The notes beneath the pieces were generated by a model that ran no database searches, had not been told where the DNA came from, and saw nothing but the letters and a program-made list of their open reading frames with translations. From NCBI GenBank assembly GCA_017305595.1, contig JAFKKL010000007.1, forward strand, positions 1-64,000: DNA of 64,000 bases, written 5' to 3'. Positions 40,636 through 57,525 of this stretch are shown here, one piece after another (position 1 is the first letter of the stretch; every line of letters begins with the position of its first letter). The position numbers and the translations under genes were made by a program. The stretch is from Hyphomicrobiales bacterium. GTDB taxonomy: Bacteria; Pseudomonadota; Alphaproteobacteria; Rhizobiales; Xanthobacteraceae.

Positions 40636-42378
40636 TCACGAGATCGTCATCGCGCGCCGTGCCAGTGCGAGACCCATCAACACGAAGGCCGAGGTGACTT
40701 CCGGCCCGCCGACCAGGATGCGTGTCGGTGTTTTCATCTTGTTCCATTCATAGGCCCTGAACGGGCCACGCCGACCGCCTTCGCCACGCTGACGGATGAT
40801 GACATGGAGCGGAGTCGCGAACGCTGCACGCTCCGCCCCGAGATGCCCGAGCGCGATCAGCGCTAATGCCGCGTCGAACGGATTCATCTCGTGGGCGATC
40901 AGATCGTCGCGCACATAGGCGAGGACCTTTTCGCGAATGAACGCGAAGGCATCGTCCGGGTCGATGGCACGACGCGCGGCGTCCGGTAAGGCCATGAAGG
41001 CGGCGTAGCAGCGACCAAAATAGGCGCAATACAGTTCCGGCAGGTAATAGATGTGCGAGCGGGGGTTGGCGAACGCGCCGCTTTCCGCCAGCCTCCGCTG
41101 GAACGCGACGATGCCGTGGATCACCGCGAGTCGTGCCGGGGTCTCGACGATCTTCCAGCGCGCGCAGTTGCGGAACGAGACTTCGAGCACGTCGAGATTG
41201 AGCGTCGGATCGAGATCGTTGCCGTAGGGCCGCTCGCCTTTGAGGTTGTCGATCCACGTCACGATGCCGCCGCGATAATCGACGTGATCGTTCAGCGGCA
41301 CCGTGACCCGCGGTTCGTTGGCGCCGTGCGTCACCTGATAACCCGCATAGAAATCCACCAGCGGCTGGTCGAGCAGCGGATCGTCGCGTCCCGCCTGCAA
41401 CGCCGCCGAGAACGAGCAGGCCGTAGTGTCGCAGTCCGGCACGTAGATGCCGAAGCCGAGGTCCTGCTTGATCTGCGCGAAAAAGCGGCTGAAGCGCGGA
41501 TGCGGCGCCGGCGCCAACGCGGTGATGACGTCGAATGTTTTGCCGTCGCGCCCGTGCACGGTTTCGCGGCTGGGTCCCAGGCAGAATGTGGCCATCGCGT
41601 CGATGGCCGCACGTGCCGGCGTCTGTTCGTCAGGTGAAGCGAGACCAGTTTCTAGATAGCTCAGCAGCGCTTCGATGAAGAACGCGTCGTAATAGGCCGA
41701 GCGATGGCGAATCTGCACCGGCTCCCACATCGGTTCGGCGATGCCGGTCCATGGCGGATTGATCAACCGACCCGCCGGCGAGCGTGCGATGAACACCCGC
41801 GCCAGATTGAACAGCAGCGTCGAATTCTTGTAGCCGCGCGCATCGAGACCGGTCAGCGCCGCGAGGAAATCCGCGCCGCGTACATCCGGATCGCCGATCA
41901 GGTTGAAGGCGGCGTAGGTCGGCAGAAAGCCGTTCTTCGCATAGGAGCGTAGCAAATGTTGACCGCAGGTGCGGATCGTCGCGTCGATCTCGCTCATCGC
42001 CGGTGCGTCGCGCGGCGCGGCAAGCGGCTTGGGTTGCGGATGGCGAAGCTGCAGTGTGTCGACCAGTTCGGCCACCGGCTGGCCAATCGCGATCCAGTCG
42101 GGTTCGCTGTCGTCACGGGCGCGAGTCAGCGCCGCGCGCAGCGCGTTGAAGCGATCCTCATGGCGCAGTTCGGGCAAGCCCGCACGTCGCAGCAGCGGCC
42201 GCAATGCCGGATTGCTCAGCGCGGTCCGGTAGAACTTGGCGAGATGCGCGTCGCCCGGCGGCTGGCTGCCGCCCGTGCCGCGCAGCAGCGGATCGCACAC
42301 GTCGTAGAGGGAAGGGCCTTCCTTGCTGGCCGTGAGCGCGCGGAGGGTGGCGCCGGCGAAATACCGCACATCCGTCAA
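40636..42378 (-). CDS. Large alpha-helical protein, terpene-cyclase-toroid-like, unknown
   Basis: 580 aa if started at TTG 42378. I do not recognise a named family. The helical repeats, and the motif DCDTTACSF (315-323) at the place and style of the DxDDTA motif of class II terpene cyclases, suggest an alpha/alpha toroid; the fourth position is Thr instead of the catalytic Asp. Other readable parts are NSTLLFNLARVFIARSPAGR and GGPEVTSAFVLMGLALA near the end. No ATG exists near the 5' end. TTG 42378, GTG 42369 and a TTG at 42501 are possible starts. No isoprenoid genes are nearby. Confidence 0.72.
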   Translation of the reverse strand: MTDVRYFAGATLRALTASKEGPSLYDVCDPLLRGTGGSQPPGDAHLAKFYRTALSNPALRPLLRRAGLPELRHEDRFNALRAALTRARDDSEPDWIAIGQPVAELVDTLQLRHPQPKPLAAPRDAPAMSEIDATIRTCGQHLLRSYAKNGFLPTYAAFNLIGDPDVRGADFLAALTGLDARGYKNSTLLFNLARVFIARSPAGRLINPPWTGIAEPMWEPVQIRHRSAYYDAFFIEALLSYLETGLASPDEQTPARAAIDAMATFCLGPSRETVHGRDGKTFDVITALAPAPHPRFSRFFAQIKQDLGFGIYVPDCDTTACSFSAALQAGRDDPLLDQPLVDFYAGYQVTHGANEPRVTVPLNDHVDYRGGIVTWIDNLKGERPYGNDLDPTLNLDVLEVSFRNCARWKIVETPARLAVIHGIVAFQRRLAESGAFANPRSHIYYLPELYCAYFGRCYAAFMALPDAARRAIDPDDAFAFIREKVLAYVRDDLIAHEMNPFDAALALIALGHLGAERAAFATPLHVIIRQRGEGGRRGPFRAYEWNKMKTPTRILVGGPEVTSAFVLMGLALARRAMTIS

Positions 42379-42602
42379 TGGTTTCCGCCCCGCTGTCCGT
42401 GCCCGAATGTGCCGGCGCCGGTCGCCGGATGGCCCGCGCCCATGGCTCGCTCCTCGGCCCGCGCGCTCCGAGAGGCTGTCACGAAGCGGGCGGCATTTCA
42501 AATGTGACGTCGATCACTGTGGAGAAACGCAGCCGGGCGCATGGTGGGGACATTAAAAGCGGCCGGTCCAGCGGGACGGTCCATAAGCCCAGGGAGAGTG
42601 TC

Positions 42603-42845
42603 ATGTCGAAGATGTCCAGCAAGTTCAGCATCCGCACCGTGCTCACCAGCCTGGCGGTGGCCGGTTCCCTCACGATCTTCGCCCAGGCGGCAAACGCTTA
42701 CACCAGCGAACAGCGCATCGCCTGCACCCCGGACGCCTTTCGGCTGTGCAGCGGTGAAATCCCGAACGTCGAGGGCATCACGGCCTGCATGCGCAAGCAG
42801 AAGTCGAGCCTGAGTGCGGCCTGCAAGGCGGTGTTCGATAAATAA
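42603..42845 (+). CDS. Small secreted Cys-rich protein
   Basis: 80 aa. Signal peptide (LTSLAVAGSLTIFAQAANA), then a short domain with four Cys: ACTPDAFRLCSGEIPNVEGI, then CMRKQKSSLSAACKAVF. The Cys spacing (C-x7-C-x12-C-x10-C) matches a small Cys-rich family common in rhizobia whose function I do not know. GGGAGAG precedes ATG 42603. The first dead-caspase gene starts 162 nt downstream. Confidence 0.85.
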   Translation: MSKMSSKFSIRTVLTSLAVAGSLTIFAQAANAYTSEQRIACTPDAFRLCSGEIPNVEGITACMRKQKSSLSAACKAVFDK

Positions 42846-43007: not shown

Positions 43008-43877
43008 ATGAAAATACGGAATTTTCGCGTATCGCGCCGGACGGCCACCCTGTTTGCGGTCATGATCGGAACCCTGTCGCTGGCGATCGGCGCCCACGCC
43101 GCTTTGTACAAGCGCGCCGCCGATGCGACCAAGGCTGCCGCAGTTGCCCCCGTAGCGGTGAATGGCCCCACCAAGGTCGCACTGGTGATCGGCAACAGCC
43201 TTTATCCTGACGCGAACGCCCCGCTGGCCCAGCCGGCCAACGATGCCCGCGCTCTGGCTGCAACCTTGCAGCGGGATGGTTTCGACGTCGAAACGGTTGA
43301 AAATGCTGATAAAAGCGAGATGCACGGTGCTGTCGAGCGGCTCAAGGCGAAAATCCGCCCCGATTCGGTCGCGATGCTGTTTTTCTCCGGCTTTGGCGTG
43401 CAAGTTGGTCGCGAGAGCTACATGATCCCGGTCGATGCCGCGATCTGGAAGGCCTCCGACGTTCGCCGCGACGGCACCAGTATCGAGTCCGTGCTGGCGG
43501 CAATGAAAGAACGTGGTGCCCGCGCCAAGCTGGTAGTGGTCGATGCCTCGCGCCGTAATCCCTATGAGCGCCGGTTCCGATCCTATTCGCACGGGCTGGC
43601 CCCGATCAACGCGCCGGATAACGCGCTGGTGTTGTCTTCAGCGGCTCCGGGTCAAGTGGTCGATGACGGCAACGGTCAGAACAGCCCTGTGGTCGCGGAA
43701 CTGCTGAACAATCTGAAGTCGCCTTCCGCCGATGCCGCTACGGTTTTCAACAAGACCCGGACGGCGGTGTCGCAGGCGTCGAACGGCAAACAGGTCCCAT
43801 CGGTGTCGTCGTCCCTGCTCGACGACGTAAATTTCGGCGACACAAAGCCGGCCAATCTGGCCAAGGCCGGAAGCTGA
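43008..43877 (+). CDS. Caspase-fold protein with both catalytic residues lost (short form)
   Basis: 289 aa. An N-terminal signal or anchor segment (about 13-31) then a caspase-like (C14) fold: KVALVIGNSLYPDANAPLAQ, ANDARALAATLQRDGF, LFFSGFGVQVGRESYMIPVD, VVVDASRRNPYERRFRS. In active relatives the third block reads GHG and the fourth DACR. Here the catalytic His is Phe129 and the catalytic Cys is Ser181. It should therefore be a pseudo-protease, probably a binding or scaffold protein in the periplasm. A second copy with TPRs is at 54950. The start site has no strong ribosome site. Confidence 0.88.
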   Translation: MKIRNFRVSRRTATLFAVMIGTLSLAIGAHAALYKRAADATKAAAVAPVAVNGPTKVALVIGNSLYPDANAPLAQPANDARALAATLQRDGFDVETVENADKSEMHGAVERLKAKIRPDSVAMLFFSGFGVQVGRESYMIPVDAAIWKASDVRRDGTSIESVLAAMKERGARAKLVVVDASRRNPYERRFRSYSHGLAPINAPDNALVLSSAAPGQVVDDGNGQNSPVVAELLNNLKSPSADAATVFNKTRTAVSQASNGKQVPSVSSSLLDDVNFGDTKPANLAKAGS

Positions 43878-43902
43878 AGCGGGATACATTCAAATTCGAT
43901 CC

Positions 43903-43989
43903 GTCATCCCGGCGTTGTGCCAGGCATCCACGTCTTAGAGGTCGCTCAGTAAGAAAGGCGTGGATGGCCGGGACAAGCCCGGCCATGAC
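43903..43989. repeat. Dispersed intergenic palindrome
   Basis: Degenerate left arm (GTCATCCCGGCGTTGTGCCAGGCAT) and right arm GGCCGGGACAAGCCCGGCC, ends GTCAT and ATGAC. It lies between the convergent dead-caspase and adaptor genes. Confidence 0.7.
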
Positions 43990-44072
43990 ATGGTGATGTT
44001 CGACTTCAATCCGCATCGCTCTGAATTCCCGGCAAGACTGAGTTTGCAGCCAATTCGCAGCCGGTGATTTCG

Positions 44073-44978
44073 CTACTTCTTCGCGGCGTCGGCCATGATC
44101 GGCCGCACCGGGTCGCCTTCGCGCAGGAGGGCGCCGGCACGCGCTACCACCGTTTCGCCCGCGGACAGGCCCTCGCGGATTTCGACCCGCCCGCCCGACA
44201 TCAGGCCGGTTTCGACGCGTCGGGTTTCCACCCGGTCGCGCCGCACCACCTGCACCACGGTGCCGGCGCTGCTGTAGAGGATCGCGGTCAGCGGCACCGC
44301 AACGCCGCAGCTTTCCCCGGTCTTGATCGATGCCCGCCCCGACGCATTGACCAGCAGCGATCGCTTCGACGTCACCGCAATGAAGGCCGTGCCGAGCTGG
44401 CTGTTGGGATCGATGGTGGCGCCGATCTGCCGCACCTTGCCTTGAAGATCGTCGATGCCGCTGATCCTGATGGTCGCGGGCTGGTCGACCTTGAGCTTGG
44501 CGAGGTCGTGGGTCGACACCCGCACCGCGAGATCGAACTCGTTGCCGGTGATGATGTTGAACAGCGCCTCGCCCTTGCCGGATGCGATGGAGCCGACCAC
44601 GGCTGTCGATGCGCTGATCAGCCCGGCGGCCGGCGCCTGAACGGTGATCGCGTTGGTCTCGGACTGGCCGATCCTGGCCAGCGCCTGTCCGGCGGTGACG
44701 GTCTGCCCGATATCCACCAGCACCTCCTGCACCTTCAGGCCGGGGCGATCGGGTCGCACCGCGATCTCCTCGCGCGGAATCAGCAGGCCGAACGCGTCGA
44801 CGACATCGGAGAAGCATGACTTCGCGGTGGTCAGCACGGTCACCGCCGCGGCACTGGCCGGGGTCTCATTGGCGGCGAGAACGGACTGCGGCAAAACGCA
44901 CAGCGCGGCTGCGAGCAGCGTTCGGGCGGGACGGTTGAGCCATCCTCGGAACGGCAACAGCGCGGCAATGCATTTCAT
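44073..44978 (-). CDS. Short hairpin-less periplasmic adaptor (HlyD/RND type), orphan
   Basis: 301 aa. Signal region to about residue 36, then membrane-fusion-protein domains: two half-lipoyl segments (GLKVQEVLVDIGQTVTAGQ; ITVQAPAAGLISASTAV) joined by only about 6 residues, so the usual helical hairpin is missing. A barrel domain and a membrane-proximal domain follow. Cys55 (KSCFSDV) and Cys224 (ESCGVAVP) match cysteines in the adaptor at 53120. No pump gene is beside it. ATG 44978 is preferred to TTG 44981. Confidence 0.86.
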   Translation of the reverse strand: MKCIAALLPFRGWLNRPARTLLAAALCVLPQSVLAANETPASAAAVTVLTTAKSCFSDVVDAFGLLIPREEIAVRPDRPGLKVQEVLVDIGQTVTAGQALARIGQSETNAITVQAPAAGLISASTAVVGSIASGKGEALFNIITGNEFDLAVRVSTHDLAKLKVDQPATIRISGIDDLQGKVRQIGATIDPNSQLGTAFIAVTSKRSLLVNASGRASIKTGESCGVAVPLTAILYSSAGTVVQVVRRDRVETRRVETGLMSGGRVEIREGLSAGETVVARAGALLREGDPVRPIMADAAKK

Positions 44979-45092
44979 CAAAGGGATTCCGGTTGCAATG
45001 GAGTGGTCGTCGCTAAAGGAGACTATTGAAGCGGCGCGCCAGCGCCAAGGGGGGCACTCATGAGGTTTCGTCGATATCAGTGCGCGGCAAGT

Positions 45093-47036
45093 TCAGGAGG
45101 CGCGGGTGGAATGTTGGACCCCGACATCGGCCTCGGTTGATGGCGCACGCCAGCGCAGGATTTCCACCGCCGGAATCGGATGATGGAAACCCTTGAGGGT
45201 GAGCGGCGCCAGCGGTTTCGCCTCGACCAAGGTTTCCACCATGCCGTAGGCGCGCTGGCTGACGACGATCTGCCCGGCCTTGGCTTCGTCGGACAGGCGT
45301 GACGCCAGGTTGGTGACGCTGCCGATCGCCGCGTATTCCAGCCGCCGCTCGAATCCGATCTGCCCCAGCGTGGCGTAGCCTACCGCGATGCCGACGCCGA
45401 AGCCGAGGTTATGGCCGCGGCTGCGCCATTTGCGAGCCAGCACCTCGATGCTGTCGCGCATTTCGATCGCCATTCTGACGGCGCGCTCCGCATGATCGGC
45501 AAACTGCAGCGGCGCGTTGAACAGGATCATCACGCCGTCGCCGGCATAACGGTCGAGGGTGCCTTCGTAGCGGACGATCGATTCACCCAGCGCGGCATGA
45601 TACTCGCGCAGCACGTTCATCGCTTCTTCCGGCTCGGAGCTTTCGGTGAACGCGGTAAAGCCGCGCAGATCGCAGAACACCACCGTCACCTCGCGGCGAT
45701 GGCTGTTGAGCAGCGAATCGTGGCCGTCGGAGGAGGCGATGAGTTGCGCCACCTGCGGAGCGAGAAAACGCTCCAGCCGGCGGATGCGCTCGATTTCGCC
45801 GAGCTGCTTCTCGACGCGTTCCTCCAGCGAGCGATTCCAATGCTGCAACTGGTCGGTCTGCTCCTGCAATTTGTCGGCCTGGCGTTGCACGGTGTCGCGC
45901 GCCGTCGCCAGTTCGTCGACCGAGCGCGCCAGATCGCGGGTGCGTTCCGCGACCTTGGATTCCAGTCCCGCGTAGGTTTCCTGCAATTCCCCGGCCATGC
46001 TGTTGAACTGGTCGGCGAGTTCTTCCAGTTCGTCGGAGGTCTTCACCTCGATGCGATGATCGAAGTCGCCGGCGCCGAGTCGCCGCGCGCCGGAGCGCAG
46101 CGCGTTGATCGGCCCCACCATCCGGCGCGCCAGCAGGACGCCAGCGAGAATCGCGACCGCGAGGCCGAGCGCGGCGAGCGCCGCGATGCGCAGCAGCAGT
46201 GCGCGCGCCGGTGCCAGCGCCTGGCTGGTCGGCTGTTCGAACACCACGAACCAGCCGAGCTTGGGTACGCTTTGCGCGGCGGTGAGGACTGCGTGACCGT
46301 CTGGCGCGGTGCCGGCGTCGAGCGACGTGCTGTCGGGCTTCAGCAGCGCCGCGATCTGCGGCAGATTCGCCCAATCCTGTCCGATCAGGCGGCTCGCCCC
46401 GGAATGCGCTAGCACCCGGCCCGCGGGATCGACGATATAGGCGGTGGTGTGCTTGCCGATCTGCCCGGCTTCGACGAAGTCGCGAAGAAACCGCAGGTCG
46501 ATCTCGGCGACGGTGACGCCGGCGTCCCGGCCTGCATGCGCCACAGCGATCGACATGAAGGGCTGGCCGTTGCGGAAGATCGCCGGCGCAAACGCTGCAC
46601 CCTTAGCGACACCTTGCGTGAAGGCGGCATCGCGGGAGAAGTTCGCGCCGCTGTCGAGCGTCACCGCCGCTCGGGTCATGCGCAGCTGTTCGCGTCCCGC
46701 GCCGTCGAGTTTGAAGATCTGGCTCACCGAAGGCTGCTGGTTCAGCAATTGGACGTAGTCGGTTTGGCGCTGTTCGATGGTCGCGACGCTGGCGCGCGTC
46801 ACCCAACTCACCTGCCGTTCGAGATCCGACATCGATTGCGCGATGCGGTGCGCCACTGCTTCCGCCTTATCACTCATCGCTGCGGTGAGGTTGGCTCGCG
46901 TCTCGCGATAGATCATCCAGGTTTCGAGCGCGGCGTTGATCGCCAGCACGAACAGCACGAGGCCGACCAGCGACACGACGTACTTGGCGAACAGGCCGCC
47001 GCGCCGCCACCAGCCCTTGTCGTGTTGCCCGGCCAT
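45093..47036 (-). CDS. Membrane class III nucleotide cyclase with Cache and HAMP
   Basis: 647 aa from ATG 47036 (AGGA 5 nt upstream). Membrane helix about 18-38, a periplasmic Cache-type sensor (about 40-280), second helix about 283-304, HAMP (305-358), a coiled coil to about 425, and a class III cyclase domain. Metal-binding Asp456 (FCDLRGF) and Asp500 (YAGDGVM) and transition-state Asn576 and Arg580 (SVTNLASRL) are present. The Lys that usually reads adenine (DKFxGD) is Arg here, so ATP or GTP use is uncertain. A CRP-type regulator is 2.3 kb away on the other strand. Confidence 0.92.
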   Translation of the reverse strand: MAGQHDKGWWRRGGLFAKYVVSLVGLVLFVLAINAALETWMIYRETRANLTAAMSDKAEAVAHRIAQSMSDLERQVSWVTRASVATIEQRQTDYVQLLNQQPSVSQIFKLDGAGREQLRMTRAAVTLDSGANFSRDAAFTQGVAKGAAFAPAIFRNGQPFMSIAVAHAGRDAGVTVAEIDLRFLRDFVEAGQIGKHTTAYIVDPAGRVLAHSGASRLIGQDWANLPQIAALLKPDSTSLDAGTAPDGHAVLTAAQSVPKLGWFVVFEQPTSQALAPARALLLRIAALAALGLAVAILAGVLLARRMVGPINALRSGARRLGAGDFDHRIEVKTSDELEELADQFNSMAGELQETYAGLESKVAERTRDLARSVDELATARDTVQRQADKLQEQTDQLQHWNRSLEERVEKQLGEIERIRRLERFLAPQVAQLIASSDGHDSLLNSHRREVTVVFCDLRGFTAFTESSEPEEAMNVLREYHAALGESIVRYEGTLDRYAGDGVMILFNAPLQFADHAERAVRMAIEMRDSIEVLARKWRSRGHNLGFGVGIAVGYATLGQIGFERRLEYAAIGSVTNLASRLSDEAKAGQIVVSQRAYGMVETLVEAKPLAPLTLKGFHHPIPAVEILRWRAPSTEADVGVQHSTRAS

Positions 47037-47124
47037 TCCGTTCCTCATGCACGGGCGAAGCCCGATTGCCCCTGCGTCGTATCAAATCAGAAATATTATA
47101 TCCACGTCCGGCGGCATTTGGCTC

Positions 47125-47153
47125 GTCATGGCCGGGACAAGCCCGGGCATGAC
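47125..47153. repeat. Half-unit of the dispersed palindrome
   Basis: GTCATGGCCGGGACAAGC and GGGCATGAC form a single hairpin unit of the family with a 12-bp span. It lies between the cyclase start and the AsmA stop. Confidence 0.7.
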
Positions 47154-47188
47154 GGAGGAAATCTCAATTCATCGGCATTGGATGGCCG

Positions 47189-49072
47189 TCAGCGGCCGAA
47201 CAACTGCTTGAGAATGCCGTTGATAGCCGATGCGCCGTCGCTGTCGTCGGGCACATCCTGCCTGTCGGGGGCGGAGCGTGGTTGTGGCTGCGATCCGCCC
47301 AACCCCTGCCGGATCATGCCGCCCAACGTTTCACCGAGACTTTTGCCGGTCTTGGTATCGGTACCGAACAGGCCCTGGCCCAGTTCGCGCAAGCGCGCAT
47401 AGGCGGCATCGGGATTGTCGAGGATGCCGGCCATGTCCGGATAGATCTGCGGCGCGGCCCACGGCCCCTGGATCATCACCGGAATGCCCAGCCCGACCGG
47501 ATCGGCCGTACTGCCCTGACCCTCGAGCGACATCACCAGCTTGGGCTCGACCCGCAGCGCCAGCGCCTTGCCGCCGAGATCAACGGTGCCGGTGCCGCGC
47601 ATCCGCACCAGCGGGCCGATGAGCGTGAGATCGCCGGTCTCGGCCTTGCCCTGCGCGATGCGGAACGAGGCGCTGAGTTGCGACAGGTCGGTGGCCTGCA
47701 CCTCGTCGCTCTGCCAGCCGTTCAAGGTACCTGCGGTGAGCGAACGGATCATCTGCGCGATATTGATGCCGCGGATTTTCCCGTCGCGGAAATCTAGGAA
47801 GGCGGTGCCTTCGAGATTCGACATCATCGCGCGGGCATTGTTGCCGGACGACTGCACCGTGAACTTCGCTTGCAGTTTGCCTTCCAGCCGGTCGAAATCG
47901 GCAAGCCCGGACAACAGCGGCAACGCGCGGATGCCGGCGAGGTCGCCCTGCAAGGCGAGGCGCGGCGTCGCGCCCGATGCATCCAGCGTCAGCGTACCGT
48001 TGGCGAGGCCTTCATAGGCGCCGAGGTTCTCGACCTTTGCCGTGAGCGTGCCGCGATCGAGCGTCGCGCCGAACGCCAACGGTGCGATCTGAAGATCGCC
48101 GTAAGCAAGATGTGCGGCGGAGATACGCACGTCGGCATCGACATAGTTCAGGCCGCGAAGGTCGAACGGCGCATCGCTCCACGATGTCGCGGACACTTGC
48201 GTCGCGGCTTGCGCCGGCTTTCCGATGGCGAGCTCCTGAATATCGAGATCGAGTTTCACCAGTGGCTTGCTGGCGAGATCGACCGAGGCCCAGCCGGTGA
48301 ATGGTTTGCCGCCGAGTGTGCCGGTGCCGCCGTTGATCCGCACCATGGCGTCGGTGATGCGGACGTCGGCCTTGGCGGTCAGCGTCCCGGCCAGCAGGCT
48401 TGGCGCTTCGAACGTCAATTCCACCGGCACATTGCGGCGCGCGGCCGCATCGCCCGGCCGCGCCGCGCGGAGGTCGAGCTTGAGTGCGTGCGTGCCGCTT
48501 CGCGCGGTGGCGTTGATCGTGAGTTGGCGGTCCGCGCCGATGGCGGCGGTGGCATTGATCGCCTCGATACGATCCTCGACCTTGTCGCGCGGGTTGGCGA
48601 ACACCAGCGCGCCATCGTTGATGGTGATGCGATCGATCCGAATCTGTGCTGCGTCGGATGCGGAGGTCGGCGCGGCATCGTTGTTTGCCGATGCGGTTTT
48701 CGTCGCTGTGCGTTCGCGCAGCAACGGCAGGTAGGCGACCGGCTTTTCGAGTGCGAGGCCGGTGACGACCAGCTTGCCGGTTAGCAAACTTCCAAACGGC
48801 ATCTCCACACGCGCTTGCGCGATCTCGATGCGCTCGGCGTCACCAGTGCCGGCGTGCCGGTCCAGCGTGACGTCGTTCAGCGTGACATGGAAAGTCGGCC
48901 ACAAGGCGATGCGGGTGGTGCCGTCGATCTCGATCCGATAACCCGTCGCGCGTTCGACCCGCGCCTGGATCGCCGACGTCATCATTCCGGAGGGAATGCC
49001 GACCGCGAGAACGATCACGACGACGAGGACAACGGCCGCGATCACGGCGCCGACGAGTTTGACAATTTTCAT
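47189..49072 (-). CDS. AsmA-family protein
   Basis: 627 aa. An N-terminal membrane anchor (LVGAVIAAVVLVVVIVLAVG) and a long beta-rich periplasmic AsmA region: GYRIEIDGTTRIALWPTFHV, LNDVTL, then the C-terminal half with GTAFLDFRDGKIRGINIAQM, LTLIGPLVRMRGTGTVDLGG. AsmA-like proteins bridge inner and outer membranes and help lipid transport and outer-membrane biogenesis. ATG 49072 was chosen since the region before it is the intergenic promoter. It is divergent from the CRP-type regulator. Confidence 0.9.
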   Translation of the reverse strand: MKIVKLVGAVIAAVVLVVVIVLAVGIPSGMMTSAIQARVERATGYRIEIDGTTRIALWPTFHVTLNDVTLDRHAGTGDAERIEIAQARVEMPFGSLLTGKLVVTGLALEKPVAYLPLLRERTATKTASANNDAAPTSASDAAQIRIDRITINDGALVFANPRDKVEDRIEAINATAAIGADRQLTINATARSGTHALKLDLRAARPGDAAARRNVPVELTFEAPSLLAGTLTAKADVRITDAMVRINGGTGTLGGKPFTGWASVDLASKPLVKLDLDIQELAIGKPAQAATQVSATSWSDAPFDLRGLNYVDADVRISAAHLAYGDLQIAPLAFGATLDRGTLTAKVENLGAYEGLANGTLTLDASGATPRLALQGDLAGIRALPLLSGLADFDRLEGKLQAKFTVQSSGNNARAMMSNLEGTAFLDFRDGKIRGINIAQMIRSLTAGTLNGWQSDEVQATDLSQLSASFRIAQGKAETGDLTLIGPLVRMRGTGTVDLGGKALALRVEPKLVMSLEGQGSTADPVGLGIPVMIQGPWAAPQIYPDMAGILDNPDAAYARLRELGQGLFGTDTKTGKSLGETLGGMIRQGLGGSQPQPRSAPDRQDVPDDSDGASAINGILKQLFGR

Positions 49073-49216
49073 GCGGAAATCCGGCCTCGCGAAACATATG
49101 TCGGAACTTGAGATGTCGGCGCAGCCTGCCGTCGGGTTCAATGCGCGTCGAACACAACGCGCCAGCGCGACCGAATGTCCCGACAATGTAGGAATAGTGC
49201 AAAAGGGCTGCAAACC

Positions 49217-49234
49217 TGTGTGACCTGTGACACA
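49217..49234. promoter_or_regulatory. Candidate CRP/FNR-type operator
   Basis: TGTGTGACCTGTGACACA is palindromic at 7 of 9 paired positions and resembles the CRP half-site TGTGA. It lies 58 nt upstream of the CRP-type start and in the divergent asmA promoter region. Confidence 0.5.
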
Positions 49235-49292
49235 CTCGCGCAATTGATCAGCGGTAAGAGTCGCGCGGGTCTTGCATCGGAACAGGGGAGCA

Positions 49293-49967
49293 ATGAGCAA
49301 ACAGGTCGAATTTGCCGTCATTCTCAAGATGAATCCGATGTTCGCCGAACTGGGCGCGGCCGAGTTGCAACGCATCTCGGGCCTTTGTCACACGCAACAG
49401 CTCGCGGCCGGCGAGGTGTTGTTCCAGAAGGGCGACGACGGCGATGCGCTGTTCGGCGTGCGGCGCGGGCAGATCCGGATCGAAACAGGCGCATCCGACG
49501 GCGCACGGTTGACGCTCAATTTCCTCGGCCCGGGCGATCTGTTCGGTGAGGTCGCGGTGCTCGACGGCCAGAGCCGCACGGCGGATGCCACCGCCGGCGA
49601 GCCGACTGAGCTATTTGTGCTGCGGCGTGAGGACTTTCTCGCGCATCTGGAACGCGAACCGAAGGTCGCGGTGAAGCTGATCGAGTTGCTGTGCCAACGC
49701 ATCCGCTGGATGAGCGAGCGCATGGAGGAATCGGTGTTGCAGCCGCTGCCAGTGCGGCTGGCGCGGCGGCTCTGCGCATTGGCGTCCGATTTCGGCTCCG
49801 AGGTTCACATCTCGCAAGAGCAGCTCGGCGTGTTCGTCGGCGCGGCGCGCGAGAGCGTCAACCGTCAACTGCAGCAATGGCGCAAGGACGGCATCTTGGA
49901 CCTGCAACGCGGCCGCGTGTTGCTGCTCAACATGACCAAGCTCACGGCAGTGGCGCGGAACGATTAG
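49293..49967 (+). CDS. CRP/FNR-family transcription factor, probable cAMP-type
   Basis: 224 aa. A cyclic-nucleotide-binding domain (about 15-125) with phosphate-binding cassette FGEVAVLDGQSRTADA: Glu86 and Arg95 are kept, as in cAMP-binding members. The dimer helix is followed by a helix-turn-helix, ISQEQLGVFVGAARESVNRQ (173-192). It lacks the N-terminal Cys cluster of FNR. GGGGAGCA precedes ATG 49293. The nearby cyclase could supply its ligand. Confidence 0.92.
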   Translation: MSKQVEFAVILKMNPMFAELGAAELQRISGLCHTQQLAAGEVLFQKGDDGDALFGVRRGQIRIETGASDGARLTLNFLGPGDLFGEVAVLDGQSRTADATAGEPTELFVLRREDFLAHLEREPKVAVKLIELLCQRIRWMSERMEESVLQPLPVRLARRLCALASDFGSEVHISQEQLGVFVGAARESVNRQLQQWRKDGILDLQRGRVLLLNMTKLTAVARND

Positions 49968-50014
49968 GAGAGCTGGCTGCTTGCGCTTGTCGCACTGACG
50001 AAACGGAAGGCCGC

Positions 50015-53000
50015 TCACGTCGCCTGCTTGTGTTCGACTGCTGGCGGTTCGTCGTCGTGTTCGTCGCTCGATGAAATCACCTTGCGGCCGAGGCGCACGA
50101 AGAATTGGCCGACGTCGTCCATCAGCAAGAACATTGCCGGCACGAAGATCAGCGACAGCAGGGTCGAGAAGATCAGGCCTCCGATCACCGCCAGCGCCAT
50201 CGGCGAGCGGAATTCGCCTCCGGCGCCGAACGCGAGCGCGCTCGGCACCATGCCGGCGGCCATCGCGATGGTGGTCATGACGATAGGACGGGCGCGCTTC
50301 TGTCCCGCATCGATAATGGCGGCATCGCGCGCCATGCCGGCGCGGATCGATTCGATGGCGAATTCCACCAGCATGATGGCGTTCTTGGTGACGATGCCCA
50401 TCAACATCAGGATGCCGATCCACACCGGTGTGGTGAGCTGCTTGCCGGTGAGCAGTAGCGCCATGATCGCGCCGCCGATCGAGAGCGGCAGCGAGAACAG
50501 AATGGTGATCGGTTGCAGGAAGGTGCCGAACAGCAGCACCAGCACCGCATAGACCATCATCAGGCCGGCGCTGATCGCGGTGGCGAATCCGGCGGAGAGT
50601 TCGTTCAGGCTCTCGGCGTCGCCGGACTGGTTGACGCGCACGTTCTTCGGCAGGCTCTTCATCACCGGCAATTCGTAGATCGCCTTCAGCGCGTCGCCGA
50701 GGGCGGCGGTGCCGACCAGATCGGCGGCCACCGTCGCCTGCCGCTCGCGGTCGTAGCGATTGATGCTGGTGGGGCCCTGATCGAGCGTGACGTCAGCGAC
50801 GACGGAGAGTGGCACGCCGCCGCGGCCGCCGCCGAGCGGCACGCGCAGTTGTTCGAGCACGCTCAAATCGCCGCGCGCGCTGTCCTCGAGTTGTACGCGG
50901 ATCGGCACCTGGCGATCGCCGGCGTCGAACTTGGCGAGCGCCGGGCCGACGTCGCCGATGGTGGCGACGCGGATGGTTTCCGACAGGCTTTCGGTGGAGA
51001 CGCCGAGCCTTGCGGCGAGATCGGCGCGCGGCTGGATGCGCAGTTCGGGACGATCCAGCGCGGTTTCCGAGATCACGTTGGCGATCAGTGGAATCCGTTT
51101 CATCTGATTGGCGAGTTCGCTCGCCACGTTCGCGACGATGTTGCTGTCGGTGCCGGTCACCACCAGCGAGACGGCGCGCAGACCGTTCTCGTCGAGGAAC
51201 CAGTAGCGGATGTCGGGAACGCCCTCCAGCTCCTTGCCGATGGCGAGTTCAAGCTCGCGCTGGGTGATCTTGCGATCGCTCTTCGGCGTGTAGTTGATGA
51301 TCAGCGCGGCGCGGCGGACTTCGTAGGTGCCGGGCGGGACGTGGCCGCCGTCGACGAACACGCTCTTCACCTCGGGCCGCTTGCGCAGCCGCGCCACGAT
51401 GTCCTCGGTCACCTTCTCGGTGTAGGCGAGCTGCGAGCCCGGCGGCAATTCCATTGCCAAGAGGGATCGCGCGGTGTCCTGTGCCGGCAGGAAGCCTTGC
51501 GGCAACAGATGAATGCTCCAGATCGACGCGGCGAACACCGCGAAGCCGAAGATCACGGTGAGGATGTAATGCTTCACCGACCACGTCACGAGGCGTGTAT
51601 AGTTGCGCAGCACGCGGCCGGGCGGCGGGTCCTCATGCGCATGGTGCTTGAGGAAATACGCCGCAAGCACCGGCGTCACGAAGCGCGCCGCGAGCAGCGA
51701 GAAGAACACCTGCACCGACACCGTGATGCCGAACTGCTTGAAGAACTGCCCGGCGATGCCGGACATGAAGCTGGCGGGCGCGAAGATCGCGATGATGGTG
51801 AGGCTGATCGCGATCACCGCGAGACCGATTTCGTCGGCCGCCTCCAGCGCCGCGCGATAGGGCGATTTGCCCATGCGCATATGACGTACGATGTTCTCGA
51901 TTTCGACGATGGCGTCGTCCACCAGAATGCCGGTCGAGAGCGTGATGGCGAGGAACGAGACGAGATTCAGCGAGAATCCCAGCATGTCCATCGCCCAGAA
52001 CGCCGGAAAGATCGATAGTGGCAGCGAGATCGCGGCGATGATGGTGGCGCGGATGTCGCGCAGGAACAGAAATACCACGATTACCGCGAGGATTGCGCCC
52101 TCGAACAAGGTCGAGATCGCGGCCTCGTAGTTGCCCTTGGTAAAATCGACCGACGTATCGATCAACTTGAGATCGACGTCGGGATACGCGGCCTTCAGCG
52201 CTTCGATGCGCTTTTCCACGGCGGCGGCGACCACCACGTCGCTGGCGCCCTTGGAGCGCTTGATGCCGAGCGCTACCACCGGTTCGCCGTTGAAGCGCGC
52301 GAAGGTGCGGCGGTCGGCGATGGTGTCGGTGACGGTGCCGAGATCGTCGAGGCGCAGTTCGCCGCCGGCCGGCAAGCTGATCATCGTGCCGGCGAGATCC
52401 TGCAACGTCTTCGCGCCGGCGAGCGTGCGGATCGCCTGATCGTTCTTGCCGATTTCAGCGCGGCCCCCGGCGAGATCGACATTGGTGCCGCGCAGCCTTC
52501 GGCTGACATCGACCGCAGTGAGGCCGGCGGCCTGCAGGCGGTCTGGATCGAGTGAAACGAGGATCTCGCGCTCGACGCCGCCGATGCGTTCGACCTGCGC
52601 CACGCCGCGCACACCTTGCAGCGCGCGCTTCACCACGTCGTCGACGAAATACGACAATTGCTCCGGCGTTTTGCCGGGCGAGATCGCCGCGTAAGTAACG
52701 ATCGGCAGGCCGATGACGTCGACGCGCTGGATCAGCGGCTCGTTGACGTTCTGCGGCAGGTTGGCGCGGACCCGCGTCACCGCGTCCTTGATGTCGTTGA
52801 GCGCACGGTCGGTATTGGTTTCCAATGCGAACTGGATGGTGGTCACCGACAGGCCGTCGGTGATCGACGATGCGATATGGCGAACGCCCTCGACGCCGGA
52901 GACGCCGTCCTCGATGGTCTTGGTGACCTGCGCTTCCAGTTCGGCAGGCGCGGCGCCGAATTGCGACACCGCAACCGAGATCACCGGAATGTCGGCAGCC

Positions 53001-53119
53001 GGCAGCCGCGTCACCGCGAGCTTGGTGAAGCTGATCCAGCCCAGTGCCAGGAGGATGATGGAGAACAGCACCGACGGCAGCGGGTGGCGGATCGACCAGG
53101 CCGAAATATTCAAGGACAT
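50015..53119 (-). CDS. RND efflux permease (HAE1-like)
   Basis: 1034 aa, 12 membrane helices and two large periplasmic loops, of normal RND length. N terminus LPSVLFSIILLALGWISFTK; TM4 has the proton-relay Asp pair in GILVDDAIVEIENIVRHM; TM10 region has the conserved Lys-type segment MGIVTKNAIMLVEFAI. The Asp pair marks a proton-driven multidrug or lipid-type exporter, and the heavy-metal CusA signature is not seen. The adaptor stop abuts its start with no gap. No TolC-type gene is nearby. Confidence 0.93.
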   Translation of the reverse strand: MSLNISAWSIRHPLPSVLFSIILLALGWISFTKLAVTRLPAADIPVISVAVSQFGAAPAELEAQVTKTIEDGVSGVEGVRHIASSITDGLSVTTIQFALETNTDRALNDIKDAVTRVRANLPQNVNEPLIQRVDVIGLPIVTYAAISPGKTPEQLSYFVDDVVKRALQGVRGVAQVERIGGVEREILVSLDPDRLQAAGLTAVDVSRRLRGTNVDLAGGRAEIGKNDQAIRTLAGAKTLQDLAGTMISLPAGGELRLDDLGTVTDTIADRRTFARFNGEPVVALGIKRSKGASDVVVAAAVEKRIEALKAAYPDVDLKLIDTSVDFTKGNYEAAISTLFEGAILAVIVVFLFLRDIRATIIAAISLPLSIFPAFWAMDMLGFSLNLVSFLAITLSTGILVDDAIVEIENIVRHMRMGKSPYRAALEAADEIGLAVIAISLTIIAIFAPASFMSGIAGQFFKQFGITVSVQVFFSLLAARFVTPVLAAYFLKHHAHEDPPPGRVLRNYTRLVTWSVKHYILTVIFGFAVFAASIWSIHLLPQGFLPAQDTARSLLAMELPPGSQLAYTEKVTEDIVARLRKRPEVKSVFVDGGHVPPGTYEVRRAALIINYTPKSDRKITQRELELAIGKELEGVPDIRYWFLDENGLRAVSLVVTGTDSNIVANVASELANQMKRIPLIANVISETALDRPELRIQPRADLAARLGVSTESLSETIRVATIGDVGPALAKFDAGDRQVPIRVQLEDSARGDLSVLEQLRVPLGGGRGGVPLSVVADVTLDQGPTSINRYDRERQATVAADLVGTAALGDALKAIYELPVMKSLPKNVRVNQSGDAESLNELSAGFATAISAGLMMVYAVLVLLFGTFLQPITILFSLPLSIGGAIMALLLTGKQLTTPVWIGILMLMGIVTKNAIMLVEFAIESIRAGMARDAAIIDAGQKRARPIVMTTIAMAAGMVPSALAFGAGGEFRSPMALAVIGGLIFSTLLSLIFVPAMFLLMDDVGQFFVRLGRKVISSSDEHDDEPPAVEHKQAT

Positions 53120-54076
53120 TTATCGGCCTCGCAGGCGATCGGGGTCGTCGTTGAAGATGGGTTTGACGCGGTCGCCGTCATGCAGCGAGGTGCCGGCATC
53201 GGCGACCACGATCTCGTCGGTCTTGAGGCCTTCGAGAATTTCCACGGCGGTGTCGGAGTTCAGGCCGGTGCGCACCCGCCGCGTCTCGATGACGTCGCCG
53301 GCGACGACCTGAATCGTCGAATGGTCCACCGCCGAACGCGGGATCGACACGCCGCAGCTTCGCTTGGCATCGATACTGACGCGCGCGAACAGGCCGACCC
53401 GCAGCGGCGCGTTGCTGGTCAGCGCTACGCGGACGTGGCCGAGCTGGGTGCGCTGGTCGATCTGCGGATCAATCCGGCGGATGCGGCCGGCAAGATCAGG
53501 CTGGCCGTCGCGGCTGATGCGGGCGGTGGCGCCAACGGTCAGCTTCGGCATATGGAGGCCCGGCACCTCGACGTCGAATTCGAGAACGTTGTCGATCGCG
53601 ATGCGAAACATCGGCTCGGCCTGCGGCGAGGCCGGCGCGCCGACCATGGTGTGCACCTTGGTGATCAGGCCGGCGGCCGGCGCCTTCAAGATGATGGGAT
53701 TGCGCGAACTGCCGGCGGGCGAGGGCGTCAGCTTTGCCAACTCTTGATTGTCGGTGACGACATCGCCTTCATGCACGAGAAGATCGGTGACCTTCGAGCC
53801 TTCGGTGTCGACATTTACCACGGCTTCCTGCTTCGGCACCACGAAGCCGGTGACGCGGATCATGTCGGAAAAGCAGGCGTGCTTGGCTTTCACCACGCTG
53901 ACAGTGACGCCATTGTTGTTCGTTCCTTCGGCGGCACGGAGCGGCGTGATCATGGCGCCGCCGAGCAGCGCGGCGAGCGCGAAGGCACGGGGCAATGTGC
54001 CAAGTGTCGCCGACAGCCATCGTGGCGCTACGGCAATGTCTGACGCCACGGGCGGCTGACGGTTGGGCTCGATCAT
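53120..54076 (-). CDS. Short hairpin-less periplasmic adaptor of the RND pump
   Basis: 318 aa. Signal or anchor segment about 28-48, then half-lipoyl segments (GSKVTDLLVHEGDVVTDNQ; IILKAPAAGLITKVHT) joined by a loop of about 13 residues, so no coiled-coil hairpin. Barrel and membrane-proximal domains follow (RIRRIDPQIDQRTQLGHVRV; VEILEGLKTDEIVVADAGTS). Cys68 (HACFSDM) and Cys241 (RSCGVSIP) are shared with the paralogue at 44073. Its stop codon is immediately followed by the pump start codon. ATG 54076 is preferred to a GTG at 54133. Confidence 0.9.
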   Translation of the reverse strand: MIEPNRQPPVASDIAVAPRWLSATLGTLPRAFALAALLGGAMITPLRAAEGTNNNGVTVSVVKAKHACFSDMIRVTGFVVPKQEAVVNVDTEGSKVTDLLVHEGDVVTDNQELAKLTPSPAGSSRNPIILKAPAAGLITKVHTMVGAPASPQAEPMFRIAIDNVLEFDVEVPGLHMPKLTVGATARISRDGQPDLAGRIRRIDPQIDQRTQLGHVRVALTSNAPLRVGLFARVSIDAKRSCGVSIPRSAVDHSTIQVVAGDVIETRRVRTGLNSDTAVEILEGLKTDEIVVADAGTSLHDGDRVKPIFNDDPDRLRGR

Positions 54077-54153
54077 GAACGGCGTCGCTTGTCGATGAGA
54101 GGAATCCGTAGGGTGGTGCAGGGCGGTTGGCACAACGATGTTACTAGGAGATG

Positions 54154-54804
54154 TTACTTGGACGCCGTCTTGTTCTGCATGTTGACGATCTGCACGCGCC
54201 GGTTGGCGGCGTCGAGCGGCGCGTCCGGTTTCTTCAACCGGGTTTCGCCGTAGCCGACCGTGACCAGTTCGTCGCCCGCGATCCCGAATTTCTCGACCAG
54301 ATAGTGTTTCACGGCGTCGGCGCGTCGTTCCGACAGCGATTGATTGTAGCTGTCGCTGCCGACGGCGTCGGTGTAACCCGCGAGCAGGAAGGTCGAGCCT
54401 TTCAGGTCGGGATTGGTGAGCGCGCGTCCCAGTGCCTCGACCGCCGATTTAGCCTGCGCGCCGATGGTCGCCGAGTTGTAGTCGAAGTTGATTTCGAGAT
54501 CGATGCTCGGCCGCTGGTCGGCGATGGTTGCGATCTGCTGGCGCTCGCCGGTGGACAGCGAGCGCGTCGTGCGGTTGCGCACGGTGTCGATGAAGCGGGT
54601 GTCGGCGGGGTTCGTCGTAGCTTCGGGCGGCGGCGTCATCGACAGGCTGCGCGTCAGCGGCTTCTTCGGCGTCAACGCTTGCAGAATCTGCCCCTCGCTG
54701 ACCTCGCCGGCATTCGCCATGCCGCCGCTCATCGCCATCAGCACGCCAAGGACCAGAAGCGAACGGAGCGTGTCGCGACCGTGTCGTTTCGATGCGATTG
54801 CCAT
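54154..54804 (-). CDS. OmpA-family protein (upstream of the RND genes)
   Basis: 216 aa. Signal peptide (LLVLGVLMAMSGGMANA) then a linker with a twice-used RSLS motif and a C-terminal OmpA-like peptidoglycan-binding domain: IDLEINFDYNSATIGAQAKS, LLAGYTDAVGSDSYNQSLSE and RRADAVKHYLVEKFG. The peptidoglycan-contacting Asp and Arg of TDAVGS...RR are kept. ATG 54804 follows GGAGG with a long gap (about 10 nt). It is closely related to the OmpA protein at 56640, on the other side of the dead-caspase gene. Confidence 0.9.
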   Translation of the reverse strand: MAIASKRHGRDTLRSLLVLGVLMAMSGGMANAGEVSEGQILQALTPKKPLTRSLSMTPPPEATTNPADTRFIDTVRNRTTRSLSTGERQQIATIADQRPSIDLEINFDYNSATIGAQAKSAVEALGRALTNPDLKGSTFLLAGYTDAVGSDSYNQSLSERRADAVKHYLVEKFGIAGDELVTVGYGETRLKKPDAPLDAANRRVQIVNMQNKTASK

Positions 54805-54949
54805 GATGAAATTCCTCCGCTGCAATAAAGACGCTGGTTGGAGCCAACGATGGAAACAGTTGTCCGCGAGAGACCGGAAAGCCGGCCCCGGGTTTTTGAA
54901 ATCCGCGACGGAACGGCCGGTCATCCGGCCACGCTCCGCGCAATCAAAC

Positions 54950-56431
54950 TCAGTTTACGCCGTAGCCGGCGAATTCCTTGGCGATGTTGGGGTCCATCGC
55001 CTTGGCGTTGGTGATGTCGAGTTCGCCGGCCGCCGTCGCACCGCTACGCTGCTTGGCGAGGCCTCGGCCATAGAGCGACGACGTCAGCCGCGGATTGACC
55101 TTGAGCGCGGCGTCGAAGTCGACGATGGCGTCCTTGGCCTTGCCGCTCTTGAGATAAAGCAAACCGCGGCTGTCGAGCGCATCGACGAAGCCGGGACGCA
55201 GCCGCAGCGCTTCGTTGCAGTCATGAAGCGCGGTCGACAATTCACCGACGACGGTGCGGGTCCAGCAACGATTGTTGAGGGCCTCGACGTCCTTCGGGTT
55301 CAGTTTCAGCGTCTCATCGAAATCCTTGATGGCCGCGCTATAGGCGCCCTTGCTGGCATAGACCTGGCCGCGCCGGTACAGCGAATTGACGTCCTTCGGG
55401 TTGGCGGCGATCTTGGCGTTCAGCGCCGCGACCGTCGGTTCATGAGCCAGTGACGCGACGCTGGTTTCCGCCGGTTTGACTTCGACGGGCTTCGCTTCGA
55501 TGGGCTTGACCTCGATAGGCTTGGCTTCAACTGGCTTGGCCTCCGCTGGCTTCGCAGGCTCCGGCTGGGTGGCGACCGCCACCGGCTTCGCCGGTTCGGT
55601 CGTGGCTGGCGGCTGCGCCGCCGGTTTGACCTCGGAGACGAGCGGCTTCGGATCGAGCTTGGCGACCTTAGCGCCGGCGACGAAAGCGAAGTCTTCCGCC
55701 AGCGACGACGAGATCCACGGCACCTGCTCACTGCGCGAGGCGCGCGTCACGCCGACGCGGGTGCGGTTGAGCGTTTCCTCGGCGGTGAGATCGGGAACGC
55801 GGATTTCCTTAAGCAACTCGCCCACGAACAGGCTGCGCTCGGCACCGGAATCGCCGACCACCGAACTCAACGCCGCCGAATACATCACCAGCGAGCCGCT
55901 CGGCGCGATCACCGGCGCAAGGCCCGCCGAGAAACTGCGGAACCGGCGCTCGAACGGATTGCGGCGCGAAGCGTCGAGCAGCGCGATCTTCACCCCGGCG
56001 CCACGGCTGTTGATCTCGCCGAGAATGGTTTCGAGGCTGAAGCCGTCGCGGCGGACATCCGCCTCGGTCCAGATCTGCGCATCGACCGGCAGGATGTAAC
56101 TTTGCCGCGCCGACTGGATGCCGAAGCCGCTGAAGAAGATCAGCGCCGCGGTGCCCGGTTTGATCTGGCCATAGAATTTATCGAGGGCGCGACGCATGGC
56201 CTCGCCGGAAAGGTTCTCGCCGATCTCGACCTCGAAGCCATCGCGCTTCAATTCATCGGCGATGTCGCGGGCGTCGTTGATCGGCTCTTTCAGCGGCGTT
56301 TCGTTGTCGGGGTATTTGGCATTGCCGATGATCAGGGCCAGACGCTCGCCGTCGGCATGGGCCGCGACCACCGGAAGCAGCGGTGTCGCCAGCATCGACA
56401 GGGCAGCAAGTAGGGCAATGCGCAATTTCAT
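54950..56431 (-). CDS. Caspase-fold protein with both catalytic residues lost, plus TPR repeats
   Basis: 493 aa. Signal peptide (LLAALSMLATPLLPVVAAHA), a caspase-like domain (about 28-255), a Pro/Lys/Glu linker of imperfect K-P-[VI]-E-[AV] pentapeptides (about 275-325), and three to four TPRs (about 335-480). In the caspase part the catalytic His is Phe103 (FFSGFGIQ) and the catalytic Cys is Ser155 (LLDASRRNPFERRF). Both changes equal those in the paralogue at 43008, so loss of activity is ancestral to the pair. TPRs imply protein binding. ATG 56431 has a weak site. Confidence 0.9.
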   Translation of the reverse strand: MKLRIALLAALSMLATPLLPVVAAHADGERLALIIGNAKYPDNETPLKEPINDARDIADELKRDGFEVEIGENLSGEAMRRALDKFYGQIKPGTAALIFFSGFGIQSARQSYILPVDAQIWTEADVRRDGFSLETILGEINSRGAGVKIALLDASRRNPFERRFRSFSAGLAPVIAPSGSLVMYSAALSSVVGDSGAERSLFVGELLKEIRVPDLTAEETLNRTRVGVTRASRSEQVPWISSSLAEDFAFVAGAKVAKLDPKPLVSEVKPAAQPPATTEPAKPVAVATQPEPAKPAEAKPVEAKPIEVKPIEAKPVEVKPAETSVASLAHEPTVAALNAKIAANPKDVNSLYRRGQVYASKGAYSAAIKDFDETLKLNPKDVEALNNRCWTRTVVGELSTALHDCNEALRLRPGFVDALDSRGLLYLKSGKAKDAIVDFDAALKVNPRLTSSLYGRGLAKQRSGATAAGELDITNAKAMDPNIAKEFAGYGVN

Positions 56432-56639: not shown

Positions 56640-57275
56640 CTACTTGGCCGCGTGCTCCTTCTCGGCCACGTTGACGATCTCGACACGGCGATTTTCCGCC
56701 GCAAAAGGCTCGGCTGAATTCTTCAGGCCGTCCTTGCCGTAGCCGGATGTCACCAGCAGGTCCGGCGAGACCTTGTAGTTGTCGACAAGGAAGCGCTTCA
56801 CCGTCTCCGCGCGGCGTTCCGACAGTTTCTGATTGTAGTCGTCGGCGCCCTTCGCGTCGGTATGGCCGCCCAGCATCACCACCGAGCCTTGTAATTCGGG
56901 ACTGGTGAGTGCCTTGCCGAGGCTGTTGAGCTGCGGCTCGGCGCGTGGCGTCAGGTCAGCCGAGTTGAAATCGAAGTTGATCTCGACGTCGATCTTCGGC
57001 CGCTTGGCCGCGATCTCGGCCATTTGTTCACGGTCGCCGAGCGACAGCGACCGGCTCTGCGCGCGCACACGCTGGATAAACGCGGTGTCAGCGTCGTTGA
57101 GGTGCGCGCGCGTCGATACGCTGAGGCTGCGGGTCCTCGGCTTCAGACCGTCGATGATCTGCTGCGTCGACAACTCGCCGGCCACGGCCGATTGCAGGAC
57201 GGGCGACACGACAAAGCCGCCAGTCAGCATTGCGAGGGCGAGGGTGGTGCCCAGATATGTCCGCCGGCTCATCAT
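56640..57275 (-). CDS. OmpA-family protein (upstream of the TPR dead caspase)
   Basis: 211 aa from ATG 57275, with GGAG 6 nt upstream. Signal peptide (TTLALAMLTGGFVVSPVLQS region), RSLS-containing linker, and an OmpA-like domain: IDVEINFDFNSADLTPRAEP, VMLGGHTDAKGADDYNQKLS and ERRAETVKRFLVDNYKVS. It should tie to peptidoglycan. Starts at 57281 and 57272 are also possible. The protein shares both the linker motif and domain with the OmpA protein at 54154, so the pair arose by local duplication. Confidence 0.9.
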   Translation of the reverse strand: MMSRRTYLGTTLALAMLTGGFVVSPVLQSAVAGELSTQQIIDGLKPRTRSLSVSTRAHLNDADTAFIQRVRAQSRSLSLGDREQMAEIAAKRPKIDVEINFDFNSADLTPRAEPQLNSLGKALTSPELQGSVVMLGGHTDAKGADDYNQKLSERRAETVKRFLVDNYKVSPDLLVTSGYGKDGLKNSAEPFAAENRRVEIVNVAEKEHAAK

Positions 57276-57525
57276 CTTCATCTCCGTTCGATTGTGAGTG
57301 CGATGGCTGCCACTCTAGTCCGCGCGCCGGCAGAGAATGTGATTATGATCACACAAGAAAGAAGTCTGCTTCTGCGGCGCGGGCTGCACCGCAGCCTGCA
57401 CGGATAGGACGCGATACGGATCGGCAAGGTTCAAAAGCGCAGCGATGGCATGTCATCCGCTACCTTTGACATTTGCGGCGCGGATGGTGTGAATGCGGGC
57501 AAGAAACGCAACCAGAGGACGACCC

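Follow-up and report, generated by a model that had tools for sequence, protein, structure and literature searches.

Two caspase-fold proteins and their catalytic sites

We analysed a 64,000-nucleotide stretch of DNA from a Hyphomicrobiales bacterium (assembly GCA_017305595.1, contig JAFKKL010000007.1, positions 1 to 64,000), here called the window, which encodes two proteins of the caspase fold with both catalytic residues replaced. One of these pseudocaspases is short, and the other carries tetratricopeptide repeats (TPRs) behind the caspase domain. Their positions are as follows, with E the expectation value of the profile match.

43008..43877, + strand: short pseudocaspase CASPs, 289 amino acids, without TPRs; PF00656, E 2.4e-38, the sole family matched
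43392..43394, + strand: codon of Phe129 of the short form, the former catalytic His, by alignment to MALT1
43548..43550, + strand: codon of Ser181 of the short form, the former catalytic Cys, by alignment to MALT1
54950..56431, - strand, start at 56431: long pseudocaspase CASPtpr, 493 amino acids; PF00656, E 1e-33, and TPR_1, E 2.8e-20
56123..56125, - strand: codon of Phe103 of the long form, the former catalytic His
55967..55969, - strand: codon of Ser155 of the long form, the former catalytic Cys

The Peptidase_C14 profile PF00656 was covered at positions 2-231 by the short protein and 2-232 by the long one, of 233 in all. A comparison with anti-phage defence caspases, through a defence-associated caspase model from PADLOC, gave only weak partial matches of 30 and 19 bits (profile positions 5-130 and 5-143 of 453). 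CASPtpr consists of a signal-like N-terminus, a caspase domain at about residues 28-250, a Pro/Lys/Glu linker and TPRs at about residues 330-490; the KPVEA linker and TPRs described in the initial annotation are real. In the predicted structure of the long form, the TPR part had predicted local distance difference test (pLDDT) values mostly above 90. Judged by eye, the N-termini of both window proteins and of the long-form orthologues resemble signal peptides, which suggests that the proteins may be exported, as had been proposed.

The motifs SGFG and DASRRNP were present in both proteins, and the reported double loss of catalytic residues was confirmed. Instead of the His-Cys dyad of active orthocaspases, the short form has Phe129 and Ser181 and the long form Phe103 and Ser155. 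When a clade profile of 29 sequences was compared with the solved MALT1 paracaspase, an aromatic residue fell on the His of GHG and a Ser on the Cys of MCR. An active His/Cys pair elsewhere in the fold was looked for and is absent, because the short protein contains no Cys and the caspase domain of the long form has neither Cys nor His. The missing catalytic residues suggest that both proteins lack proteolytic activity. The Cys residues of the long form (389 and 405) sit in the TPR part, where both were invariant in 34 aligned long forms.

Origin and conservation of the pseudocaspases

In a tree of 81 distinct caspase domains from fetched loci, the 51 pseudo forms made up one clade (support 100/99). 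The Cys site of this clade held Ser in 41 members and Ala in 10, and the His site Phe in 26, Tyr in 22, and Val, Ile and His in one each; 50 of the 51 domains had no Cys anywhere. The clade was marked by an invariant Trp and the signature D-A-[SA]-R-R-N-P-[FY]-E, with few departures. Across the clade tree the His-site residue switched several times between Phe and Tyr. The short-form orthologue in the sister genome G003, for example, has Tyr there and is 92% identical to the protein of the window's genome (G000). The sole His at this site belonged to L052 (genome G016), whose Cys had become Ala.

Because both window proteins fall in this clade, their losses are one inherited loss. The dyad was lost in a single event ancestral to the clade, and the short and long forms split later. 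The initial annotation's "same double loss" thus stands insofar as both proteins lost the dyad, although the loss was inherited once and did not happen twice; convergent losses are ruled out by the single clade. The family alignment that it had proposed gave a divided answer: the Cys site was always Ser or Ala in the 51, but SGFG is not fixed, because most members have either Phe or Tyr at the His site. A tandem origin from an adjacent active caspase is unsupported, since that caspase branches elsewhere in the tree. Taken together, the MALT1 alignment, the single clade, the counts at the dyad sites and the Cys and His content bear out the view of these proteins as pseudo-proteases.

Two acidic positions were kept in the clade, with Asp in 51/51 and 50/51 members; we take them to be those lining the S1 (Arg) pocket in MALT1. 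The window's own genome encodes seven PF00656 proteins, namely the two described here, four with a His-Cys dyad and one Tyr-Leu pseudo form outside the clade. This last protein (L006, contig C39) adjoins an active-looking caspase (L003). Besides the one in the window, short Phe-Ser forms occur in G004, G012 and G026, recognised there solely from the length of the reading frame. In a search of 297 genomes of the order, 29 genomes outside the window's family had a match, a strong one in two genomes of one other family (G366 and G408). Eight of the 27 weaker matches were fetched (L160-L167); seven of them show the Cys motif DACR, and L165 showed none by motif search.

Selection was examined through ratios of nonsynonymous to synonymous substitution (dN/dS), calculated by the Nei-Gojobori method from sequence pairs within genus. 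The ratio was 0.073-0.099 for the short form (six pairs). In the long form (six pairs) the caspase domain gave 0.042-0.091 and the TPRs gave 0.047-0.088, and the linker came out higher, at 0.176-0.263; the linker ratios are rough because dS there reached 1.9, the remaining dS values being 0.17-0.87. For comparison, the ratio was 0.032 for the pump permease described below (one pair), 0.106 for an active caspase domain (one pair), 0.12-0.19 for the adaptors and 0.10-0.26 for the OmpA-like proteins. Both pseudocaspases are under purifying selection, with dN/dS of 0.04-0.10 outside the linker, so the earlier statement that the dead fold is selected holds for the caspase domain and the short form alike. 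Pseudogene drift is ruled out by values far below 1.

The gene row, the pump and its adaptors

Most of the functional information on the pseudocaspases is carried by their gene context, which was absent from the initial annotation. The long form heads a row of genes for a resistance-nodulation-division (RND) pump, and further genes lie on both sides.

56640..57281, - strand: OmpA-like protein 1, 208 bp upstream of CASPtpr; PF00691, E 8e-20
54154..54924, - strand: OmpA-like protein 2, 25 bp past CASPtpr; PF00691, E 7.4e-21
53120..54133, - strand: RND adaptor MFPb, without alpha-hairpin, 20 bp past OmpA-like protein 2; TIGR01730, E 2.8e-28, above the cut-off
50015..53119, - strand: RND permease, MdtB/MdtC-like HAE1 type, with no gap to MFPb; NF033617, E 3.9e-211, under the curated cut-off
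47189..49075, - strand: AsmA-like protein, a recurrent neighbour of the pump; NF008091, E 5e-27, under the curated cut-off
44073..44981, - strand: adaptor MFPa, the second one without a hairpin, in convergent orientation to the short pseudocaspase; TIGR01730, E 2.6e-30

We compared this arrangement with named loci, the best 80 of 290 stretches encoding relatives, which come mainly from Bradyrhizobium and also from Tardiphaga, Nitrobacter and uncultured members. The row was counted in those 65 named loci whose downstream flank reaches 6.6 kb or more; a strict check found the order CASPtpr-OmpA-MFPb-RND in 65/65, with the RND frame split in L121. Beyond the window's family, this row also occurs in G366 and G408 (L158 and L159), which belong to another family of the order. 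The permease, whose best solved relative was MdtB (9lyq), corresponds to the RND component of a tripartite efflux pump of the MdtABC/AcrAB kind.

Co-occurrence was counted in 198 genomes of the family, taking E of at most 1e-48 for a clade pseudocaspase and at least 64% identity to the window's permease for the pump. The pseudocaspase was found in 69 genomes and the pump in 66; 66 had both, three had the pseudocaspase alone, none had the pump alone and 129 had neither. Genomes G002, G009, G015 and G017, of genera g1, g3, g9 and g11, lack both. Of 67 such pumps, 57 had a clade pseudocaspase no more than 10 kb away and one had it at 16 kb; nine were on contigs without one. In a tree of 36 pumps, those with a pseudocaspase formed one clade (100/100).

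The adaptors of this pump clade lack the alpha-hairpin with which such proteins dock to TolC-type channels; its length was measured as the spacer between the lipoyl halves in local alignments. MFPb aligned without a gap to BesA (PDB 4kks) at the hairpin site, and its significant match to MexJ began only at the second lipoyl half. The spacer was 10 residues in the nearest orthologues of MFPb. Among 98 distinct adaptors in pseudocaspase loci, it was 5-33 residues in 97 and 70, rich in Pro and Ala, in one (L057). It was 6-19 in the adaptors of L152, L154, L155 (two) and L158; in the genomes from which these come, the pseudocaspase either lies on a different contig or escaped the motif search. The comparison set comprised all 33 listed pumps less than 60% identical to the window's, 32 of them with a measurable adaptor (the contig of L210 is cut). 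Here the spacer was 103-107 residues in 31/32 and 79 in one (L178), and a caspase domain was present in 0/33 loci. Genome G011 served as an internal control. Its two pumps beside a pseudocaspase have hairpin-less adaptors with spacers of 25 and 70, and its third pump, 59% identical, has an adaptor with a hairpin insert of 103 residues, while the 11 kb of that locus contain no caspase gene. Because the pumps with pseudocaspases are one clade, with short spacers there and long ones in the sisters, the loss of the hairpin and the association with the pseudocaspase map to the same branch of the pump tree. A hairpin adaptor docking to an outer membrane channel, as in pumps of the MdtABC/AcrAB kind, was thus not seen in pseudocaspase loci.

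The solved chain closest to the adaptor profile was 6vej, which we take to be a TriA-TriB fusion; the TriA and TriB adaptors have hairpins. Four sister hairpins that we inspected had an R..L..S-like tip, with the known spacing of the RLS motif. The RLS motif is named in published work (PMC8277102). MFPb and MFPa each contain two Cys, in CFSD and SCG contexts; both were invariant in 16 aligned MFPb sequences, and they perhaps form a disulfide.

The remaining parts of the row were less uniform. MFPa is 40% identical to MFPb across 267 residues. It directly follows the RND gene in L078, L080 and L094 (Tardiphaga) and in L069 (labelled Bradyrhizobium sp. NFR13), as if two adaptors served one pump. 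That the two pairs arose by joint duplication of a pseudocaspase with an adaptor is unsupported, as MFPa-like genes occur in G079, G018 and G160, each listed with a single pseudocaspase. OmpA-like protein 1, 52% identical to OmpA-like protein 2 over 183 residues, is confined to part of the family and was upstream in 3/65 named loci. Of the named loci that span 16 kb or more, 43 of 58 contained the AsmA-like gene, which also lies close to the pump in L142, L143, L149 and L150. No outer membrane channel gene was found among the window neighbours scanned, and an unlinked one was not searched for. A promoter scan gave nothing above chance.

Three further genes lie nearby. A 621-residue protein at 40636-42501 (-) without a Pfam, NCBIfam or PADLOC match adjoins the short pseudocaspase in many fetched loci, and is also found near the pump in L155 and near a pseudocaspase in L153. 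Just upstream of the short form, 42600-42845 (+) encodes a small secreted-looking protein with several Cys and no Pfam match at 0.01, which recurs beside the short pseudocaspase in some related genomes. A Crp/Fnr-type regulator at 49272-49967 (+) is convergent with the RND gene; its 85-97% identity in the named loci holding it exceeds the conservation of the adaptors.

Interpretation and relation to known systems

The evidence supports a pseudocaspase that is non-catalytic, probably periplasmic, maintained by selection and linked to a single type of pump. Its gene linkage with a trans-envelope pump whose adaptors lack the hairpin suggests that the dead caspases serve this pump. On balance, we favour the reading that the two paralogues are non-catalytic periplasmic proteins that bind other proteins and serve one RND export system as components or as partners. 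The caspase domain would still bind a segment of a partner without cleaving it, perhaps through the kept acidic pocket; the TPRs would bind a second partner, and the OmpA-like protein would anchor the assembly to peptidoglycan. A role as binding modules would be consistent with the kept acidic positions and the TPRs, features read from sequence. The AsmA-like neighbour hints that the cargo is an envelope component rather than a drug. That the pseudocaspase fills the hairpin's place and bridges to the outer membrane is speculation. A stronger version, in which the adaptor of this pump clade lost its hairpin and the dead TPR caspase was incorporated, along with the OmpA-like anchor, into the structure of a trans-envelope conduit of a different design, we put forward only tentatively, as doubtful. 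The link is also relevant to the question of how a pump reaches the outer membrane when its adaptor has no hairpin.

Several observations weigh against the favoured reading. The tie between pseudocaspase and pump is drawn from gene linkage and co-occurrence, and the predicted structures were poor for the long-form caspase domain and MFPb, hence uninformative on the active site and the hairpin. The 64% line for the pump was placed after the empty gap between 59% and 64% had been seen, and the Fisher value of 1.6e-49 for the co-occurrence ignores the kinship of the genomes. In genus g10, pump and pseudocaspase are on separate contigs, and G031 and G094 hold extra pseudocaspase copies distant from the pump (L157 and L168). 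Across all 22 fetched divergent or extra-copy loci, the pump was on the stretch in 10, several stretches being short contigs; the eight outside the subset of 14 described below (L052, L053, L139, L140, L147, L151, L157 and L168), whether divergent, extra-copy or short-contig, all showed no pump. Two genomes keep the pseudocaspase without a close pump: G123 (a single contig judged 100% complete) has a pseudocaspase and an OmpA-like protein with a best RND match of 32% identity, and the draft genome G110 encodes two pseudocaspases. In the third exception, G006, the adaptor runs into the contig end. Relaxed constraint in these pump-less genomes was considered and set aside; when the 51 clade members are ordered by departures from conserved columns, the three pseudocaspases from these genomes come 3rd, 4th and tied 5th-7th, a post hoc ranking confounded by sampling.

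The alternative that survives best is ordinary synteny within one bacterial family, with the pseudocaspase doing an unrelated envelope job. The pump-free G123 and G110 fit it, and a metallo-beta-lactamase-fold neighbour was kept in 64/65 named loci just as the pump was, so plain synteny explains part of the linkage. However, in 14 divergent loci, a subset of the 22 that we chose, this unrelated neighbour was found in 0/14, while pump and adaptor each remained in 10/14 and the OmpA-like gene in 7/14. The row in another family and the joint absence from genomes of four genera also argue against synteny as the whole explanation, which we consider unlikely.

We judge it slightly less probable still that the target of the pseudocaspase is an active orthocaspase, which it would regulate as an inhibitor, a decoy or a substrate receptor, its adjacency to the pump being secondary. 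In favour of this, an active-looking His-Cys caspase of about 740 residues, with a caspase domain and a weak peptidoglycan-binding match, adjoins the long form in G005 (L040), G012 (L049), G014 (L044) and G018 (L056) and lies within about 4 kb of it in G105, G174, G160 and G083; other His-Cys caspases adjoin the pseudocaspase in G123 and G011. However, the gene of about 740 residues is not in the window row and was upstream in only 1/65 named loci, the active caspases next to the pseudocaspase do not branch as sisters of the pseudo clade, and it is the pump rather than the active caspase that tracks the pseudocaspase.

A new hydrolase or other enzyme activity conferred by the Ser is very improbable: the Ser at 41/51 Cys sites would suit it, but 10/51 have Ala and 50/51 have Phe, Tyr, Val or Ile at the His site. 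Least probable is the role in photosynthesis proposed for pseudo-orthocaspases in 2019, in view of their presence in orders containing phototrophs (PMC6426788). Among 61 genomes searched, 16 carry the clade, and 3 of these have the reaction centre gene PF00124; of the nine genomes with PF00124, six lacked the clade by match score. The window's own genome (94% complete) shows no PF00124.

The proteins themselves are not new: a 2019 study had already described Rhizobiales pseudo-orthocaspases of the Phe-Ser type that bear TPRs. In it, Klemencic et al. counted 582 pseudo-orthocaspases in Alphaproteobacteria, of which 561 came from Rhizobiales; the dyads seen most often were Tyr-Ser, Tyr-Ala and Phe-Ser, and TPRs were consistently present in the Phe-Ser forms (PMC6426788). 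The window proteins resemble these in dyad substitutions and bacterial order, and the long form, with TPRs behind the domain, matches the Phe-Ser type fully. The short form shares the dyad only and departs from the consistent TPRs reported in that paper. From the portions of the paper available to us, knowledge of the alphaproteobacterial forms consists so far of counts and a hypothesis, with no tested function (PMC6426788); the words operon, neighbor, RND and efflux are absent from its main text. We found no pseudocaspase-RND pump association in the literature searched, where coverage of subscription journals was small. The fixed link to one RND pump makes the function of a dead caspase directly testable in workable soil bacteria such as Bradyrhizobium and Tardiphaga.

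Hairpin-less adaptors were described in the literature searched only for BesA of Borrelia and putative spirochete relatives. BesABC of Borrelia burgdorferi is likewise an RND pump with a hairpin-less adaptor, BesA having a nine-residue loop instead of the hairpin, and its authors could not exclude an unidentified compensating factor (PMC3807786). Unlike the window row, besCAB encodes its own outer membrane channel, and the available sections of that report mention no pseudocaspase, TPR or OmpA partner (PMC3807786). An OmpA domain is shared with 14 predicted metacaspase operons counted by Asplund-Samuelsson et al. in 2012, where no RND pump is named in the part available (PMC3501461). Two adaptor genes per RND permease are also known from TriABC-OpmH of Pseudomonas aeruginosa (PMC8277102). 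Our system differs from it in two ways: the second adaptor lies beside the pump in only part of the lineages, and MdtB is the closest relative of the permease.

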